Shown here: piece by piece, positions 21,084 through 30,643 of the stretch
How the letters are laid out: each line of letters starts with the position of its first letter
Position numbering within the stretch: position 1 is the first letter of the stretch
DNA from: Gemmatimonadota bacterium
GTDB taxonomy: Bacteria; Gemmatimonadota; Gemmatimonadetes; Longimicrobiales; Gaopeijiaceae
Assembly (NCBI GenBank): GCA_027623325.1
Contig: JAQBXY010000014.1
Location: 1-64,000 of the forward strand
Length of the DNA stretch: 64,000 bases
Direction of reading: 5' to 3'
Notes under the pieces: model-generated
The model's database searches: none
What the model saw: the letters and a program-made list of their open reading frames with translations, nothing else
Told to the model about the DNA's origin: nothing
Program-made: the position numbers and the translations under genes

Positions 21084-21276
21084 GTCTTCGAGGTCGGGTC
21101 GTGGTTGGGCAGGAACGGGGCGGGGGCGATCCGGAAGTGCAGCGGCCCACAAGATCGTGGTATTGCCGGTATGACGACAATCGAGGCGGCTCGGGTGTTG
21201 GTGGTCAACAGCATCACCGTGCTCCACATTCCGTCACCGACCCTGCTTTGAACCCACGAAAGGGATGTGCGCCTCG

Positions 21277-22089
21277 ATGACGCAGGACAACAGGCCCTCG
21301 GCCTCCACGCGCTCCTTCGAGGAGAAGTACGTCCGCTTTCGGTCTCCTGAAGGACGAGCGGTCGCGCGAGCGGCGCTCGGCACTGATCTCGCGAACGGCT
21401 ACACGACCAAGGATCAGGCTGCTGCTCTTGCCGGTCACCTTGGTGTGGGAACGGGAGATCGCCTGCTTGACCTCGGGGCCGGTCGCGGGTGGCCGGGCTC
21501 GTTCATCGCCGAGACCACGGGCTGTGGTCTGGTATGCACCGATCTTCCGATGGAGGCTCTCTTGTCAGCTCAGGAGAACATCGGAGCCCTCGAGCTGGAC
21601 GCTTCGGCGACAGTCCTGGTCGCCGACGGTCGAATGTTGCCCTTCGGGGATGGCGTCTTCGATGCCGTCTGCCATGCCGACGTCTTGTGCTGACTGCTTG
21701 CAAAACTCTCCGTGATGAGAGAATGCTGGAGGGTGTTGAAGCCCGGCGGCCGACTGGCCCTGCTCACCATCGAGACTGCTCCCGATCTGAGCCAGCGTGA
21801 CCAGACGCAGGCCGCTAGCTTGGGGCCGTCCGCGGTTGGGGCCGATGCCCCAGCGCATGAGTTGGTGAGGCGTGCAGGTCTCCAAGTCCGCCATGTCGAG
21901 GATCTCACGGCGGCCTTCGCGACCACGTGCGCGGCCATCTGGGAGGTCCGGCGCTCGGCGGAGAGGGAGCTGCGCGCCGTGGAGGGTGACGAAGTCTACG
22001 ACATCGAGCAGGCCAAGAAGGAGCATATGCTCGAAGGCATACGGCTCGGGCTCCTCCGCCGGAGCCTCGTCGTCGCTGAAAGGGTGTGA
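21277..22089 (+). CDS. Class I SAM methyltransferase with in-frame UGA (candidate selenoprotein)
   Basis: A 270-codon frame interrupted only by TGA at codon 139 (21691-21693). Before it: LLDLGAGRGWPGSF (motif I, SAM binding, about 63-76), TDLPMEALLSAQEN (motif II) and VLVADGRMLPFGDGVFDAVC. After it the frame continues with normal methyltransferase sequence: KLSVMRECWRVLKPGGRLAL, then a helical C-terminal domain (HELVRRAGLQVRHVEDLT) ending SLVVAERV. The UGA follows Cys138 (DVLC-stop-LL), at the end of the usual FDAVxxxDVL strand. A stem-loop starts 12 nt after it. Selenocysteine is plausible; a nonsense mutation is the alternative. ATG at 21277 fits AAAGGG better than the ATG at 21265. Confidence 0.75.
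21694..21726 (+). promoter_or_regulatory. Candidate bacterial SECIS stem-loop after the UGA
   Basis: CTCTC (21706-21710) pairs perfectly with GAGAG (21717-21721) around the loop CGTGAT. A lower stem GCA/TGC (21700-21702 with 21724-21726) is separated by an A-rich internal loop. The apical loop begins 18 nt after the UGA and has G at its second position. Both agree with the published bacterial SECIS rules as I remember them (16-37 nt spacing, G in the first two loop bases). The upper stem is short, so the match could be chance. Confidence 0.4.
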
Positions 22090-22163
22090 CGCGCTACCTG
22101 CAGACCTCCGCCGGGGTCACGTAAGCGCGCTCCCCATTCGCATACGTCGCTTGGTCGATGTAC
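22014..22163. repeat. 150-bp direct repeat, left copy
   Basis: This segment matches 23765-23914 over 150 bases without gaps and with 7 mismatches. It holds the last 25 codons and the stop of the methyltransferase gene (intact here) plus, on the other strand, a 23-codon C-terminal fragment (YIDQATYANGERAYVTPAEV) of the secreted protein whose complete gene adjoins the right copy. Downstream, 22164-22391 holds only a leader with no supported gene. Confidence 0.95.
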
Positions 22164-23764: not shown

Positions 23765-23914
23765 CAAGAAAGAGCATATGCTCGAAGGCATTCGGCGCGG
23801 GCTCCTCCGCTGGAGCCTCGTCGTCGCTGAAAGGGTGTGACGCGCTACCTGCAGACCTCCGCCGGTGTCACGTAGGCGCGCTCCCCATTCGCGTACGTCG
23901 CTTGGTCGATGTAC
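23765..23914. repeat. 150-bp direct repeat, right copy
   Basis: Second copy of the segment at 22014-22163 (143 of 150 identical). Here the minus-strand secreted protein gene is intact, and the plus strand keeps only the last codons of the methyltransferase (KKEHMLEGIRRGLLRWSLVV then AERV and a stop at 23838-23840), with two amino-acid changes from the left copy. Each copy completes one of the two convergent genes. The stretch 23670-23764 before it contains nothing recognisable. Confidence 0.95.
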
Positions 23915-25071
23915 TCCATGCGGAACTCCAGAATCTGCCCACCGTTCCCCTCGAGAACGAGCCCCACGACCTGACCATTCGTGATGACAAACCAACGGCC
24001 CTGACTATTGTCCACACCCCCGGAGTTCCCAAGGGCGCCCCCGACGTCGACACTGACCGAACTCTCGTCCCGCATGGCGTACGACCGATCGGAAGAGAGA
24101 TACAGATCGGTGCGCGCACTGTACCCGCCGGCCGAGCCGCTGGAGTAACTACTCATCCGGGTGAGTTTTTTGCCCGCGAGAAATGACACCCACTCCCGGA
24201 CCTCGGGGTGATCTTCTGTGAAACCCGGCGCCAACGCACGACCCGCGTTCGCGCCGCCCGTCTCTGCACCGCCGGACCCGCCAGGGGTTGGGGCGCCTAC
24301 TCGCGGCCCGCTCTGACCCGCGGGCTGGCCCACCGCGCCGGTCTGGCGAGCCAGGTCGTACTGCACGCCGCCCGACTGCACCACGAGTCCACTTCCTTGG
24401 GCCTGAGCGGTCAGTTGATACGAACCCTCCGCCGTTTCAATGATGCCCTGGAGTCCTCCCGCACCGCTCTGTGCGCGCACCGCGTAGACCTCGCCGGACA
24501 CCGCGACCCGGCCCTGATATTGGCCACCGGATCCTTCAAGCTGGAGCGTCACGTTGCCGTCCGTGAACGTAACCACGAAGGGGTCTGGAGCACCGCCGGC
24601 GAGGGGATTCGCTCCCGCTGGCCTAGACGCAAGCGGATTCGAGCCGGCCCCACCCGTCGACCCGGTGCCAGCGCCGCTTGAATTCACGGCCGCGGCCCCC
24701 GCCGCCGTGAAATCGATCTCGGTGTAGTCGTCGTAGTTCGGCTGACCCTGAGCGTCCGTTCCGAAGAGGGTCATCCAAATTTCGCCCTCCCACCGGTCGG
24801 CTTCGAAGAACAACGAGCCTTCGGAACTGCGCATGGCACCGACGAGTGTACCGTCTTCGATTCGGCCTTCGATTTGATAGCTGAGGCCGTTGCTCGAAAG
24901 CTGCCCCGTCACCGCGCCGCCGCCCGCCTCCTGCAATACGAGCGTCATCACGCCCCCTACTTCGTTCGGTACCGTGAACGTTCCGGTGTATTGCTGCCCG
25001 GACACCGAGGGAGCTACGGCGGATGCGGCGGTGATGGCGAGCCCGAGGACCCACGAGAGGCGTCGGCGCAT
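23845..25071 (-). CDS. Secreted protein of unknown function, low-complexity linker
   Basis: A 408-aa exported protein: basic start MRRRLSW, hydrophobic signal segment, cleavage near SVSGQQ. Residues about 28-130 form a lipocalin-like antiparallel domain (YTGTFTVPNEVGGVMTLVLQ, VTGQLSSNGLSYQIEGRIED, WMTLFGTDAQGQPNY). A Ser/Gly/Ala linker follows, then a second similar domain (FVVTFTDGNVTLQLEGSGGQ and Y.GRVAVSGEVYAV), another Gly/Pro-rich linker, and a C-terminal domain with RMSSYSSGSAGGYS and SSDRSYAMRDESSVSVDV. It ends TPAEVCR. GAGGA precedes the ATG. I do not recognise an enzyme; an extracellular binding or structural role is possible. Confidence 0.85.
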   Translation of the reverse strand: MRRRLSWVLGLAITAASAVAPSVSGQQYTGTFTVPNEVGGVMTLVLQEAGGGAVTGQLSSNGLSYQIEGRIEDGTLVGAMRSSEGSLFFEADRWEGEIWMTLFGTDAQGQPNYDDYTEIDFTAAGAAAVNSSGAGTGSTGGAGSNPLASRPAGANPLAGGAPDPFVVTFTDGNVTLQLEGSGGQYQGRVAVSGEVYAVRAQSGAGGLQGIIETAEGSYQLTAQAQGSGLVVQSGGVQYDLARQTGAVGQPAGQSGPRVGAPTPGGSGGAETGGANAGRALAPGFTEDHPEVREWVSFLAGKKLTRMSSYSSGSAGGYSARTDLYLSSDRSYAMRDESSVSVDVGGALGNSGGVDNSQGRWFVITNGQVVGLVLEGNGGQILEFRMEYIDQATYANGERAYVTPAEVCR

Positions 25072-25178
25072 GAGTATCCTCAATGAGCGAACGTGGGGCG
25101 GGGGACCCCACCCAAGTTCACCAGGCTACGAAGCGGAATCCCTCCGTGCAAGCCGAGCGGAGAGTTTGGGGGCGTCCG

Positions 25179-27445: not shown

Positions 27446-27607
27446 GCAAGCATGATGATGTAGGTGGTGCGCCTCAACAAGCGTGTGGTGCCGGCGTAAA
27501 AGAGGTCGGTTCGTGGCAACCCGACTTCCTACGACAGGTCCTCGCGTACCCGCGTGCGCTCGCCTATCTTGCCCCGATTCGAGGTGCCTCACGCGCAGGA
27601 GTGCATG

Positions 27608-28240
27608 ATGGGCCAGGAAGAAACAGTGGGTGTGTCGGAGCACAGCTTCACCAGACGCACCTTCATCAAGGGTGTCATCGCGACCGGGGCTACAACGTCT
27701 TCCGCCGGTTATCTCTTCCGGGGATCGAGCCTACTTGGTGCGGCTACCTACCAGACCGCAACGGAGCGACTGATCACGCTCACGGTGAACGGGCAGGCCC
27801 GGAGGGTCGACGTGCTTCCGCACGAGACGCTGGCCATGACTCTCCGTTACAAGCTCGGACTCACCGGCACGAAGTTGGGGTGCGATCGCGCTGAGTGCGG
27901 AGCGTGTACGGTGCTCATCGATGGTGTGAACCAGTACGGATGCTCCATGCTGACCCACCAGGTGCGGGGCCGATCGGTCACGACGATCGAGGGGCTCGAG
28001 AATCCCGATACGGGCGAACTGAGCGTCGTGCAAAAGGCGGTCATGGAAGAGGGCGGATTCCAGTGCGCCTTCTGCGCTCCGGGCTTCATCATGAGTATGG
28101 AGGCCCTGATCGCGGAGAATCCGAACCCCACCCGCGAAGAGGCTGCCCACGCGCTTTCGGGCAATCTCTGCCGCTGCGCCGACTACCACAAAATCCTCAA
28201 CTGCGCGATGCGAGCTGCCGAGCTCGCACGGGCCGTATAG
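27608..28240 (+). CDS. Xanthine-dehydrogenase-family 2Fe-2S subunit with Tat signal
   Basis: A 210-aa electron-transfer subunit. The N-terminus carries the twin-arginine motif FTRRTFIKGV followed by a hydrophobic segment, so the folded complex should be exported. The first 2Fe-2S site is GCDRAECGACTVLIDGVNQY then GC (plant-ferredoxin type); the second, helical domain has QCAFCAPGFIMS and GNLCRCADYHKI. This architecture matches PaoA/YagT of the periplasmic aldehyde oxidoreductase. ATG at 27608 has AGGAG at 6-bp spacing. The Moco subunit follows 12 bp later. Confidence 0.95.
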   Translation: MGQEETVGVSEHSFTRRTFIKGVIATGATTSSAGYLFRGSSLLGAATYQTATERLITLTVNGQARRVDVLPHETLAMTLRYKLGLTGTKLGCDRAECGACTVLIDGVNQYGCSMLTHQVRGRSVTTIEGLENPDTGELSVVQKAVMEEGGFQCAFCAPGFIMSMEALIAENPNPTREEAAHALSGNLCRCADYHKILNCAMRAAELARAV

Positions 28241-28252
28241 CGGGAGAGATTC

Positions 28253-30643
28253 ATGGCCGAAAAACTGATTGGAGCTGACATCGCGCCACCGGATCTCCAC
28301 GCGAAGATCACGGGCCGCGCCAAGTTCGCCGAGGACTTCCGTGCCCCGGGCATGGTCTTCGCCAAACTCCTCCTGAGTCCGATGCCGCACGCCCGGGTTC
28401 GGAGCATGGATACGAGCAGAGCGCTCGCGATGCCTGGAGTCATTGGCATTCTCACCGCGGACGATGTGCCCGCTCGCGAGGGTCCGCGTGAAGCGTGCCT
28501 CACGAACGAGCCGAAGTACGAAGGTGAGCCGGTCCTGGCCGTAGCGGCCGTCGATGAGGAGACCGCAGCAGCGGCGATCGAGGAAATCGAGATCGACTTC
28601 GAGCCTCTTCCGTTCGTCGTCGATCCGCTCGAGAGCCTGCGACCCTCAGGGCCGAACGCCTACACCGAAGGCAATCAGTTTTCGGGTGAGGACGGGTGGA
28701 GCCAACTGAAGTGGACCGCGGCCGACTTCGCGCTGATCGACGCGGGCCGCATGCCGAATCCGACCGCGCCGATTGAGTGGACGAAGGGCGATCCGGAAGC
28801 CGCGTTCGCGGAGTCCTCGCTCGTCCTGGAGGAGGTCATCGTCCATCAGTCGCTCACGCACCACCCCATGGAGCCACGCTCCAACATGGCCTATTGGGAG
28901 AACGGACGGCTCTTTGCCTTCGTTTCGACCCAGAGCACGCAACAGACCAAGTTCGCTCTGGCCGGCGCCTTGGACATGGATCCAGAAGACATCACTTTGG
29001 TTGCAGAGTTCTGTGGCGGTGGATTCGGGTCGAAGATCAGCGGCTCTACGGTGATGCAGATTCCGGCGCTTTTTTCTCGTAAGATCGGTCGTCCGGTCAT
29101 GCTGCGTATCACGCGCTACGAGGAGAACTACGTCGGCCGGGCCCGCCCGGGATTCCAGAGCTGGCTCAAGATGGGATTCCTCCCCAACGGGAAGTGCAAC
29201 GCCATCGACCTCATCCTCGTCGAGGACGGGGGCCCATACGGGTCGGGCGACAACGGCACGGCGGGAATGACTGCCGACCTGACGTACACGCCGCGGAACA
29301 TGCGCTTCCGCGCGGCGTCCATGTACACGAACACGCCGCCCAAGGCGGCACAGCGAGGTCCCGGAGGGGCTCAAATCATCGCGATGATGGAGCCGATTCT
29401 CGACAAGGCGGCGCGCGAGCTCGGCATGGATCGACTCGAGATTCGTCGGATCAACGCACCAGGTCCCGATGTGACGTTCGGTCCGCGCGACACGACGCTG
29501 ACGAGTGTGCACGCACGCGAGGCGCTCGACCAGGGTGCGCAAATGTTCGACTGGGCGGGGAAGCAGGCCCTGTCCGGGCAGCGCAACGGCTCCAAAGTCA
29601 CGGGCCTCGGAATTGGCTTGTCACCGTATACCGCAGGGTCGCGCGGTCGGGACGGCCTGATGTTGATTCGGCCGGACGGTCGGCTCTACGTCCATCAGGG
29701 AATCGGAAACCTCGGCACTCACTCCATCGCCGACACGGCCCGCCCAGCTGCCGAGCTGCTCGGTCTGGACTGGGATGACGTGACCATCGTGTGGGGTGAC
29801 TCGAGTAAGGGGATGCCCCGGAGTACGGTTCAGGCCGGCAGTCAGACGACGCACGCGCACACCCGGGCGAATCATGCCGCTGGAATGGATGCGCTTCGTA
29901 AGGTCCGTCAGATTGCCGCCGCGACGCTGGGGGGGGCGGCGAGCGCCTATTCTGTAGACGGTGGACGCGTCCGCGGTCCCGGCGGGTCGATGACCTTCGC
30001 TCAGGTTGCCCAGCGAGCGATCGCCATGGGTGGTGAGTACGATGGTCACGTCCTTCCCGAAGATATCCACGCACAGACGGTTCCGGCCGCTCAGATGCTC
30101 GCTGGACAGGGTCTCATGGGTGTCGCTCGCGACAACTACGGGGGAGAGGGCTCCATCTACAGTTGGGTCGCGGGCTTCGCGATGATCGAGCTCGATCACG
30201 ACACGGGTGTCGTCGACATCAAGGAGTTCGTCGGGGTCACGGACTGTGGTACGGTGCTCCACCCTCGGAGCCTCGGAGCCCAGGTCCTCGGGGGCTGCAT
30301 CCAGGGAATCGGGATGGCCATGACGCAGCGGTGGGTCTTCGATCCGCAGTGGGGCGTCCCGTTCGCAAATCGGCTCTATACCGCTAGGCCACCCGGCTTC
30401 CTCGACATTCCCCTCAACGCGCGCTGGGGAGCCGTAGGGATCGCCGATCCGACGTCACCGGTCGGTGCAAAGGGAATTGGCGAACCACCGGTCGGTGCCG
30501 GTGCAGCGGCGCTCGCCTGCGCCGTTGCGGACGCCATGGGCGGCGTCTGCCTCTGTCGGACACCTCTGACGCCGGACATCATCCTCGCGGAACTCGAGGG
30601 TCGTGTTGCCGCACACGGCCGCCTCGATCAGCACGTCGGCTAA
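28253..30643 (+). CDS. Xanthine-dehydrogenase-family molybdopterin-binding subunit
   Basis: A 796-aa catalytic subunit. N-terminal aldehyde-oxidase a/b hammerhead domain: ITGRAKFAEDFRAPGMVFAK, then SPMPHARVRSMDTSRA. Moco-binding segments: CGGGFGSKISGS, QRGPGGAQIIAMMEP and NLGTHSIADT. Near the C-terminus is VGAKGIGEPPVGAGAAALA, whose Glu is the catalytic base of this family. No signal peptide is present; it would hitchhike with the Tat-tagged 2Fe-2S subunit. Substrate class by homology is an aldehyde or N-heterocycle hydroxylated at carbon; the actual substrate cannot be read from sequence. Confidence 0.95.
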   Translation: MAEKLIGADIAPPDLHAKITGRAKFAEDFRAPGMVFAKLLLSPMPHARVRSMDTSRALAMPGVIGILTADDVPAREGPREACLTNEPKYEGEPVLAVAAVDEETAAAAIEEIEIDFEPLPFVVDPLESLRPSGPNAYTEGNQFSGEDGWSQLKWTAADFALIDAGRMPNPTAPIEWTKGDPEAAFAESSLVLEEVIVHQSLTHHPMEPRSNMAYWENGRLFAFVSTQSTQQTKFALAGALDMDPEDITLVAEFCGGGFGSKISGSTVMQIPALFSRKIGRPVMLRITRYEENYVGRARPGFQSWLKMGFLPNGKCNAIDLILVEDGGPYGSGDNGTAGMTADLTYTPRNMRFRAASMYTNTPPKAAQRGPGGAQIIAMMEPILDKAARELGMDRLEIRRINAPGPDVTFGPRDTTLTSVHAREALDQGAQMFDWAGKQALSGQRNGSKVTGLGIGLSPYTAGSRGRDGLMLIRPDGRLYVHQGIGNLGTHSIADTARPAAELLGLDWDDVTIVWGDSSKGMPRSTVQAGSQTTHAHTRANHAAGMDALRKVRQIAAATLGGAASAYSVDGGRVRGPGGSMTFAQVAQRAIAMGGEYDGHVLPEDIHAQTVPAAQMLAGQGLMGVARDNYGGEGSIYSWVAGFAMIELDHDTGVVDIKEFVGVTDCGTVLHPRSLGAQVLGGCIQGIGMAMTQRWVFDPQWGVPFANRLYTARPPGFLDIPLNARWGAVGIADPTSPVGAKGIGEPPVGAGAAALACAVADAMGGVCLCRTPLTPDIILAELEGRVAAHGRLDQHVG

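Follow-up and report, generated by a model that had tools for sequence, protein, structure and literature searches.

Is the single in-frame TGA that crosses a methyltransferase gene in the window (the whole stretch of 64,000 nucleotides that was analyzed) a stop codon, or is it translated, and if so, into which amino acid? Sequence comparison makes it almost certain that the gene product is a selenoprotein, with selenocysteine (Sec) at residue 139. A more complete description is very probable: a Sec139 selenoprotein, directed by a stem-loop, which would be a stand-alone methyltransferase of the RebM type and would form a family separate from those already described. The features are listed in Table 1.

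Table 1. Features of the predicted selenoprotein gene, given as positions in the window
Feature	Position	Strand	Remarks
Class I SAM-dependent methyltransferase gene, UGA predicted to be read through	21277..22089	+	270 residues with Sec139; Pfam PF08241, 59.1 bits
SAM-binding motif I, LLDLGAGRGWPG	21463..21498	+	residues 63-74
Cys138 codon	21688..21690	+	invariant in the Sec family and the Cys homologue
UGA predicted to be read as selenocysteine (Sec139)	21691..21693	+	active-site loop after strand beta-4; TGA in 19/19 orthologues, Cys in L031
Bacterial SECIS-like element	21700..21726	+	lower stem 21700-21702/21724-21726
Upper stem and loop of this element	21706-21710 (CTCTC)/21717-21721 (GAGAG)	+	6-nt loop 21711-21716 (CGUGAU)
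Stop codon (TGA) of the methyltransferase gene	22087-22089	+	

The frame 21277-22089 (an alternative start is the in-frame ATG at 21265) contains exactly one internal TGA, and it directly follows the Cys138 codon. In the initial annotation, it had been described as a single TGA after Cys138 with coding quality kept on both sides, and both points have been borne out; its reading as a candidate selenocysteine methyltransferase is supported as well. The Pfam domain Methyltransf_11 spans the UGA continuously, covering residues 64-161 of the read-through protein; the separate halves score 31.5 bits (N-terminal part) and 17.2 bits (C-terminal part). Amino acid identity, averaged over all pairs of Sec members, is 0.444 before the UGA and 0.444 after it. 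Identity per codon position shows the same periodicity on both sides (0.58/0.62/0.33 before and 0.56/0.64/0.36 after). Because identity and codon pattern are equal on both sides, the 3' half is considered to be under protein selection as strong as that of the 5' half. In motif I, residues L64, D65, G67, G69, G71, W72 and P73 are invariant among 12 members.

A search of 98 related genomes returned 11 orthologues besides the window gene, with 35-50% identity and each with exactly one in-frame TGA. Further profile searches covered 395 genomes of the phylum, 121 from the same family and 288 from the order to which genome G371 belongs. The total is 19 orthologues including the window gene; they are spread over several genera and two family-level groups within a single phylum, and one of them (G244) is cut by a contig end. 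In all 19, the frame is interrupted only by a single TGA, which always falls in the same column. The motif at this column is (H/Q)-(A/T)-D-(V/A)-(L/F/M)-C-U, in which D-x-x-C-U is invariant. The UGA column had been proposed as a check, for which homologues outside the Sec group were also read. A distant homologue from an Acidiferrobacteraceae genome (L031), the sole Cys homologue found, has Cys in the Sec column (HADLLCC). A sister subfamily within the phylum (11 genomes, E 1e-28 to 1e-41) is devoid of the TGA. The seven sequences read from it have His in the Sec column, with C-H, N-H or P-H at the columns of Cys138 and Sec139. In a tree, the Sec proteins form one group (support 93/96) and the His proteins another (100/100); the Cys protein sits on a long branch. 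Plasmid and viral collections were also searched for relatives of the Sec methyltransferase and contained no real ones.

An ordinary stop, which would imply a pseudogene, a sequencing error or a split into two proteins, has next to no probability. TGA does end genes normally in this genome, among them the methyltransferase gene and the ABC-F gene upstream of it. However, 19 separate assemblies share the codon in one column without other stops, coding constraint downstream equals that upstream, and a cut between two proteins would fall inside a Rossmann fold modelled as one domain. On the strength of the 19 orthologues and the Cys homologue, a pseudogene, a sequencing error and a code reassignment were rejected.

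The genome carrying the gene (3.35 Mb, 60 contigs) codes for the machinery required for Sec. All four components that were to be looked for have been found: selA (533.8 bits; cut-off 267.9), selB (323.7 bits; cut-off 242), selD (381.8 bits) and tRNA-Sec (70.8 bits; gathering threshold 47). The selD gene (L037, G000:C8:257912-258832) has its own in-frame TGA, within HGAGUACKLG, which is the expected Sec position of the SelD selenoprotein. The presence of selB and tRNA-Sec was also checked across the genomes of the 19 orthologues, this check being run on those not already covered and on doubtful ones. Both are present in most of them. The exceptions are G009 (83% complete), where neither was found; G022 (81% complete), with a partial selB and no tRNA-Sec found; G322 (87% complete), where tRNA-Sec was not found; and G194, in which selB is only partial.

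The same genome contains a second UGA-containing methyltransferase gene (L082, G000:C8:23706-23969). It is of the ArsM type, has the UGA in LWASUIGG and a stem-loop 3' of it, and probably corresponds to the known selenoprotein arsenite methyltransferase. A relative has a similar gene (L027).

A hairpin with CTCTC pairing to GAGAG around the loop CGTGAT had been noticed downstream of the TGA. Its description proved accurate: the loop begins at the 18th nucleotide past the UGA, and G is at loop position 2. The constraints of the bSECIS model are a loop of 3-9 nt, an upper stem of 4-16 bp, G in the first two loop positions, a distance of 16-37 nt from the UGA and an energy of at most -7.5 kcal/mol (PMC13188914). 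The window hairpin fits, with a 6 nt loop, a 5 bp stem, G at position 2, a distance of 17 nt and -7.8 kcal/mol (28 nt). When 50 nt of the window sequence are folded, a different, overlapping hairpin is favored (z -2.05); in a 42-nt segment, the SECIS-like form wins, with a pair probability of ~0.98. In three close relatives (G002, G004 and G012), the hairpin is weak in isolation. A search of the genome with Rfam model RF00031 gave no SECIS match, but none was obtained in control genomes either, so this negative carries no weight.

Conservation of the hairpin is well beyond chance, with the counts coming from related, non-independent sequences. The 5-bp upper stem pairs in 19/19 orthologues, where the sole variation is from U-A to U-G. 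In the nine-pair structure, 93% of the cells are paired, versus 29-65% in controls with the partner slid. Two-sided covariation is absent across the 19 orthologues; the stem is conserved, not covarying. Third-position identity among Sec members is 0.86 inside the hairpin versus 0.33 outside. Several hairpin codons are nearly fixed (CTC in 18/18, TCC in 17/18, GTG in 18/18, GAA in 15/15). Arginine is encoded within the hairpin by AGA or AGG in 17/17 cases, while AGR is used in 75/402 other Arg codons. By these counts, the hairpin is conserved beyond coding need. It is absent from the His homologues and, as also considered next, from the Cys homologue.

A conserved in-frame stop on its own would also fit programmed read-through, with the UGA being read as Trp or another amino acid, either by reassignment or by ordinary read-through. 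This is highly improbable. The genome has a complete Sec system, the aligned homologues hold Cys or His rather than Trp or Arg, and the hairpin, which agrees with the bSECIS model, is lacking where Cys replaces Sec. Reassignment is further opposed by the normal use of TGA as a stop. We return to selenocysteine: SelB and tRNA-Sec are predicted to decode the UGA, with the stem-loop as the directing element.

Does the protein belong to a methyltransferase selenoprotein family that is already catalogued? The window protein stays below the curated cut-off of every NCBIfam model (June 2026). The 119 prokaryotic selenoprotein families inventoried in 2026 include methyltransferases of the ArsM type (UxxG), MduS (CxxU, two Sec), the UXPK-star fusion and MGMT (PMC13188914). 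This inventory has no matching entry, and no methyltransferase with C-U is described in it (PMC13188914). The nine new deep-Sep families include no methyltransferase. Since no NCBIfam cut-off is reached and there is no match in the 119-family inventory or in deep-Sep, the proteins are called a new family of SECIS-directed bacterial selenoproteins. On sequence grounds, this family appears separate from the ArsM-type and MduS-type selenoproteins and new relative to these three sources.

Membership in one of the catalogued families (ArsM, MduS, or a UXPK-star, AhpD or DUF2284 fusion) is accordingly given very little weight. Such models do occur among the weak NCBIfam matches (32-49 bits), but these scores are far below the cut-offs (380-575 bits; 263 for ArsM). 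ArsM (NF008823, UxxG) and the fusions with AhpD, DUF2284 or UXPK-star resemble the window protein in combining Sec with a class I SAM methyltransferase domain. Against the ArsM-type models, the window protein scores 35-49 bits (cut-offs 263-575), with 35.3 versus 263 bits for NF008823 itself. The UGA is also in a different column. In these genomes, the UGA of ArsM-type genes is 3' of the LKPGG motif, in WASUIGG, and their Sec is thus downstream of RVLKPGG, whereas Sec139 precedes this motif and is part of a C-U pair after beta-4. MduS (NF045649) is likewise a methyltransferase-domain selenoprotein, and membership in it had been tentatively suggested. This is not supported (32.1 bits versus a cut-off of 380): MduS is described in the review as CxxU with two Sec per protein and has a 338-position model, while the window protein has 270 residues and one C-U.

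The best NCBIfam match is the DVU_1556 family methyltransferase (NF045667), which matches all 12 members scanned. At 65.5 versus a cut-off of 155 bits, membership was rejected. Relatives of DVU_1556 in the phylum that also score below the cut-off have, like the window protein, Cys at the Cys138 column (CECSFC, CECALC; by eye). Unlike it, they lack the TGA, and their Sec column is occupied by Val or Thr.

At locus L089 (G030:C27:13161-13742 and upstream), a CobW-type GTPase frame (by eye) continues into a Cys-rich stretch (GACCAAFYDRP) just before a DVU_1556-like methyltransferase. The open frame has 695 aa and is possibly a metallochaperone-methyltransferase fusion.

What might the selenocysteine do? 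The nearest solved proteins by sequence and fold are RebM (3bus), AtmM (6uv6), MitM, TleD and phosphoethanolamine methyltransferases (E 6e-23 to RebM 3bus; TM-score 0.75 by query length). An AlphaFold model (12 family members; mean pLDDT 89.7) has strand beta-4 at residues 128-134 and Cys138-Sec139 in the following loop. The Rossmann fold, the invariant motif I and the kinship to solved members all agree with a RebM-like class I methyltransferase, and the product is probably a stand-alone small-molecule methyltransferase of the RebM, AtmM or phosphoethanolamine-methyltransferase type. The sugar O-methyltransferases RebM and AtmM, together with TleD, MitM and the phosphoethanolamine methyltransferases (3bus, 6uv6, 5gm1, 8zc8, 5wp4), share its fold and domain order. 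RebM and AtmM, however, have His-His where the Sec family has Cys-Sec. C138-U139 aligns with H140-H141 of RebM (positions counted in the alignment), which are presumably the catalytic histidines. Because the Cys-Sec pair follows beta-4 and aligns with this His pair, we expect Sec139 to lie where the methyl group is transferred, close to the methyl of SAM. No relevant paper was found in the open literature on the RebM histidines or on the Sec methyltransferase family. None of these solved relatives is given as a selenoprotein in the inventory of the review (PMC13188914).

Two groups of roles are considered, and they partly overlap. In the mechanism that we consider the most likely, the vicinal thiol/selenol pair would bind a soft substrate and present it for methylation. 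Candidates for this substrate are metalloid or metal ions, thiol complexes of these, and thiol/selenol metabolites. An adjacent Cys-Sec motif, as in the window protein, is also found in HgcA, SaoL, SaoC and MbdU, which are different protein families (PMC13188914 Table 1); the names of HgcA, SaoL and MbdU point to the handling of mercury, organometals or metals (PMC13188914). The Cys at the Cys138 column of the DVU_1556-like relatives is a further lead to the function. The assignment as a thiol- or metalloid-handling methyltransferase is tentative, at somewhat less than even confidence.

About equally likely is a selenoprotein in which Sec139 is not a ligand of a metal or metalloid. It would instead replace a RebM-like catalytic His, the selenolate acting as base or nucleophile, or the Cys-Sec bond would be redox-sensitive and serve as an on/off switch. 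Vicinal C-U pairs can form a selenenylsulfide, in line with such a switch. Replacement of His agrees with the alignment to the RebM histidines and with the sister subfamily: its His at the Sec column means that Sec stands where the ordinary methyltransferase scaffold has His. The Cys homologue, by contrast, keeps C-C, which would suit a ligand or a redox pair just as much as a base. A stronger version, in which Sec replaces the catalytic His and joins directly in methyl transfer, perhaps to metalloid or selenium/thiol compounds or via a methyl-selenide intermediate, is held more loosely still.

For the preferred reading, a Sec139 selenoprotein of the RebM type, gene neighborhoods were inspected. 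There is no conserved operon that would name the substrate, and no neighbor gene is common to all orthologues. Synteny is restricted to the genus level: ABC-F lies upstream of the gene, and a molybdenum hydroxylase cluster follows it at a greater distance. In the window, positions 27554-30643 code for a 2Fe-2S subunit and a molybdopterin-binding large subunit of a xanthine-dehydrogenase-type enzyme. In several members of the genus, as well as in G053, this cluster neighbors the selenoprotein gene. At L031:2953-6683, the Cys-type homologue overlaps an MFS transporter gene by 4 nt, followed by a gamma-glutamyltranspeptidase gene, a neighborhood that would suit thiol metabolism.

Most catalogued selenoproteins are, or resemble, redox enzymes (PMC13188914). 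A methyltransferase that stands alone and carries an invariant Cys-Sec in place of the His of its ordinary relatives would offer a clean, naturally occurring example of selenium in methyl-transfer chemistry. The exchange of His, Cys and Sec in one scaffold would make the role of selenium in methyl transfer testable. Since standard gene calling stops at the UGA, members of the family are likely annotated as two fragments.

A minor observation concerns the 3' end of the selenoprotein gene. Window positions ~22040-22160 and ~23780-23920 each encode YIDQATYANGERAYVTPAEVCR on the - strand and SSAGASSSLKGCDALPADLRR on the + strand (ORF list, by eye). Because both are encoded at both places, the segment over the selenoprotein gene's 3' end seems to have a second copy where the gene at 23845-25083 ends (by eye).
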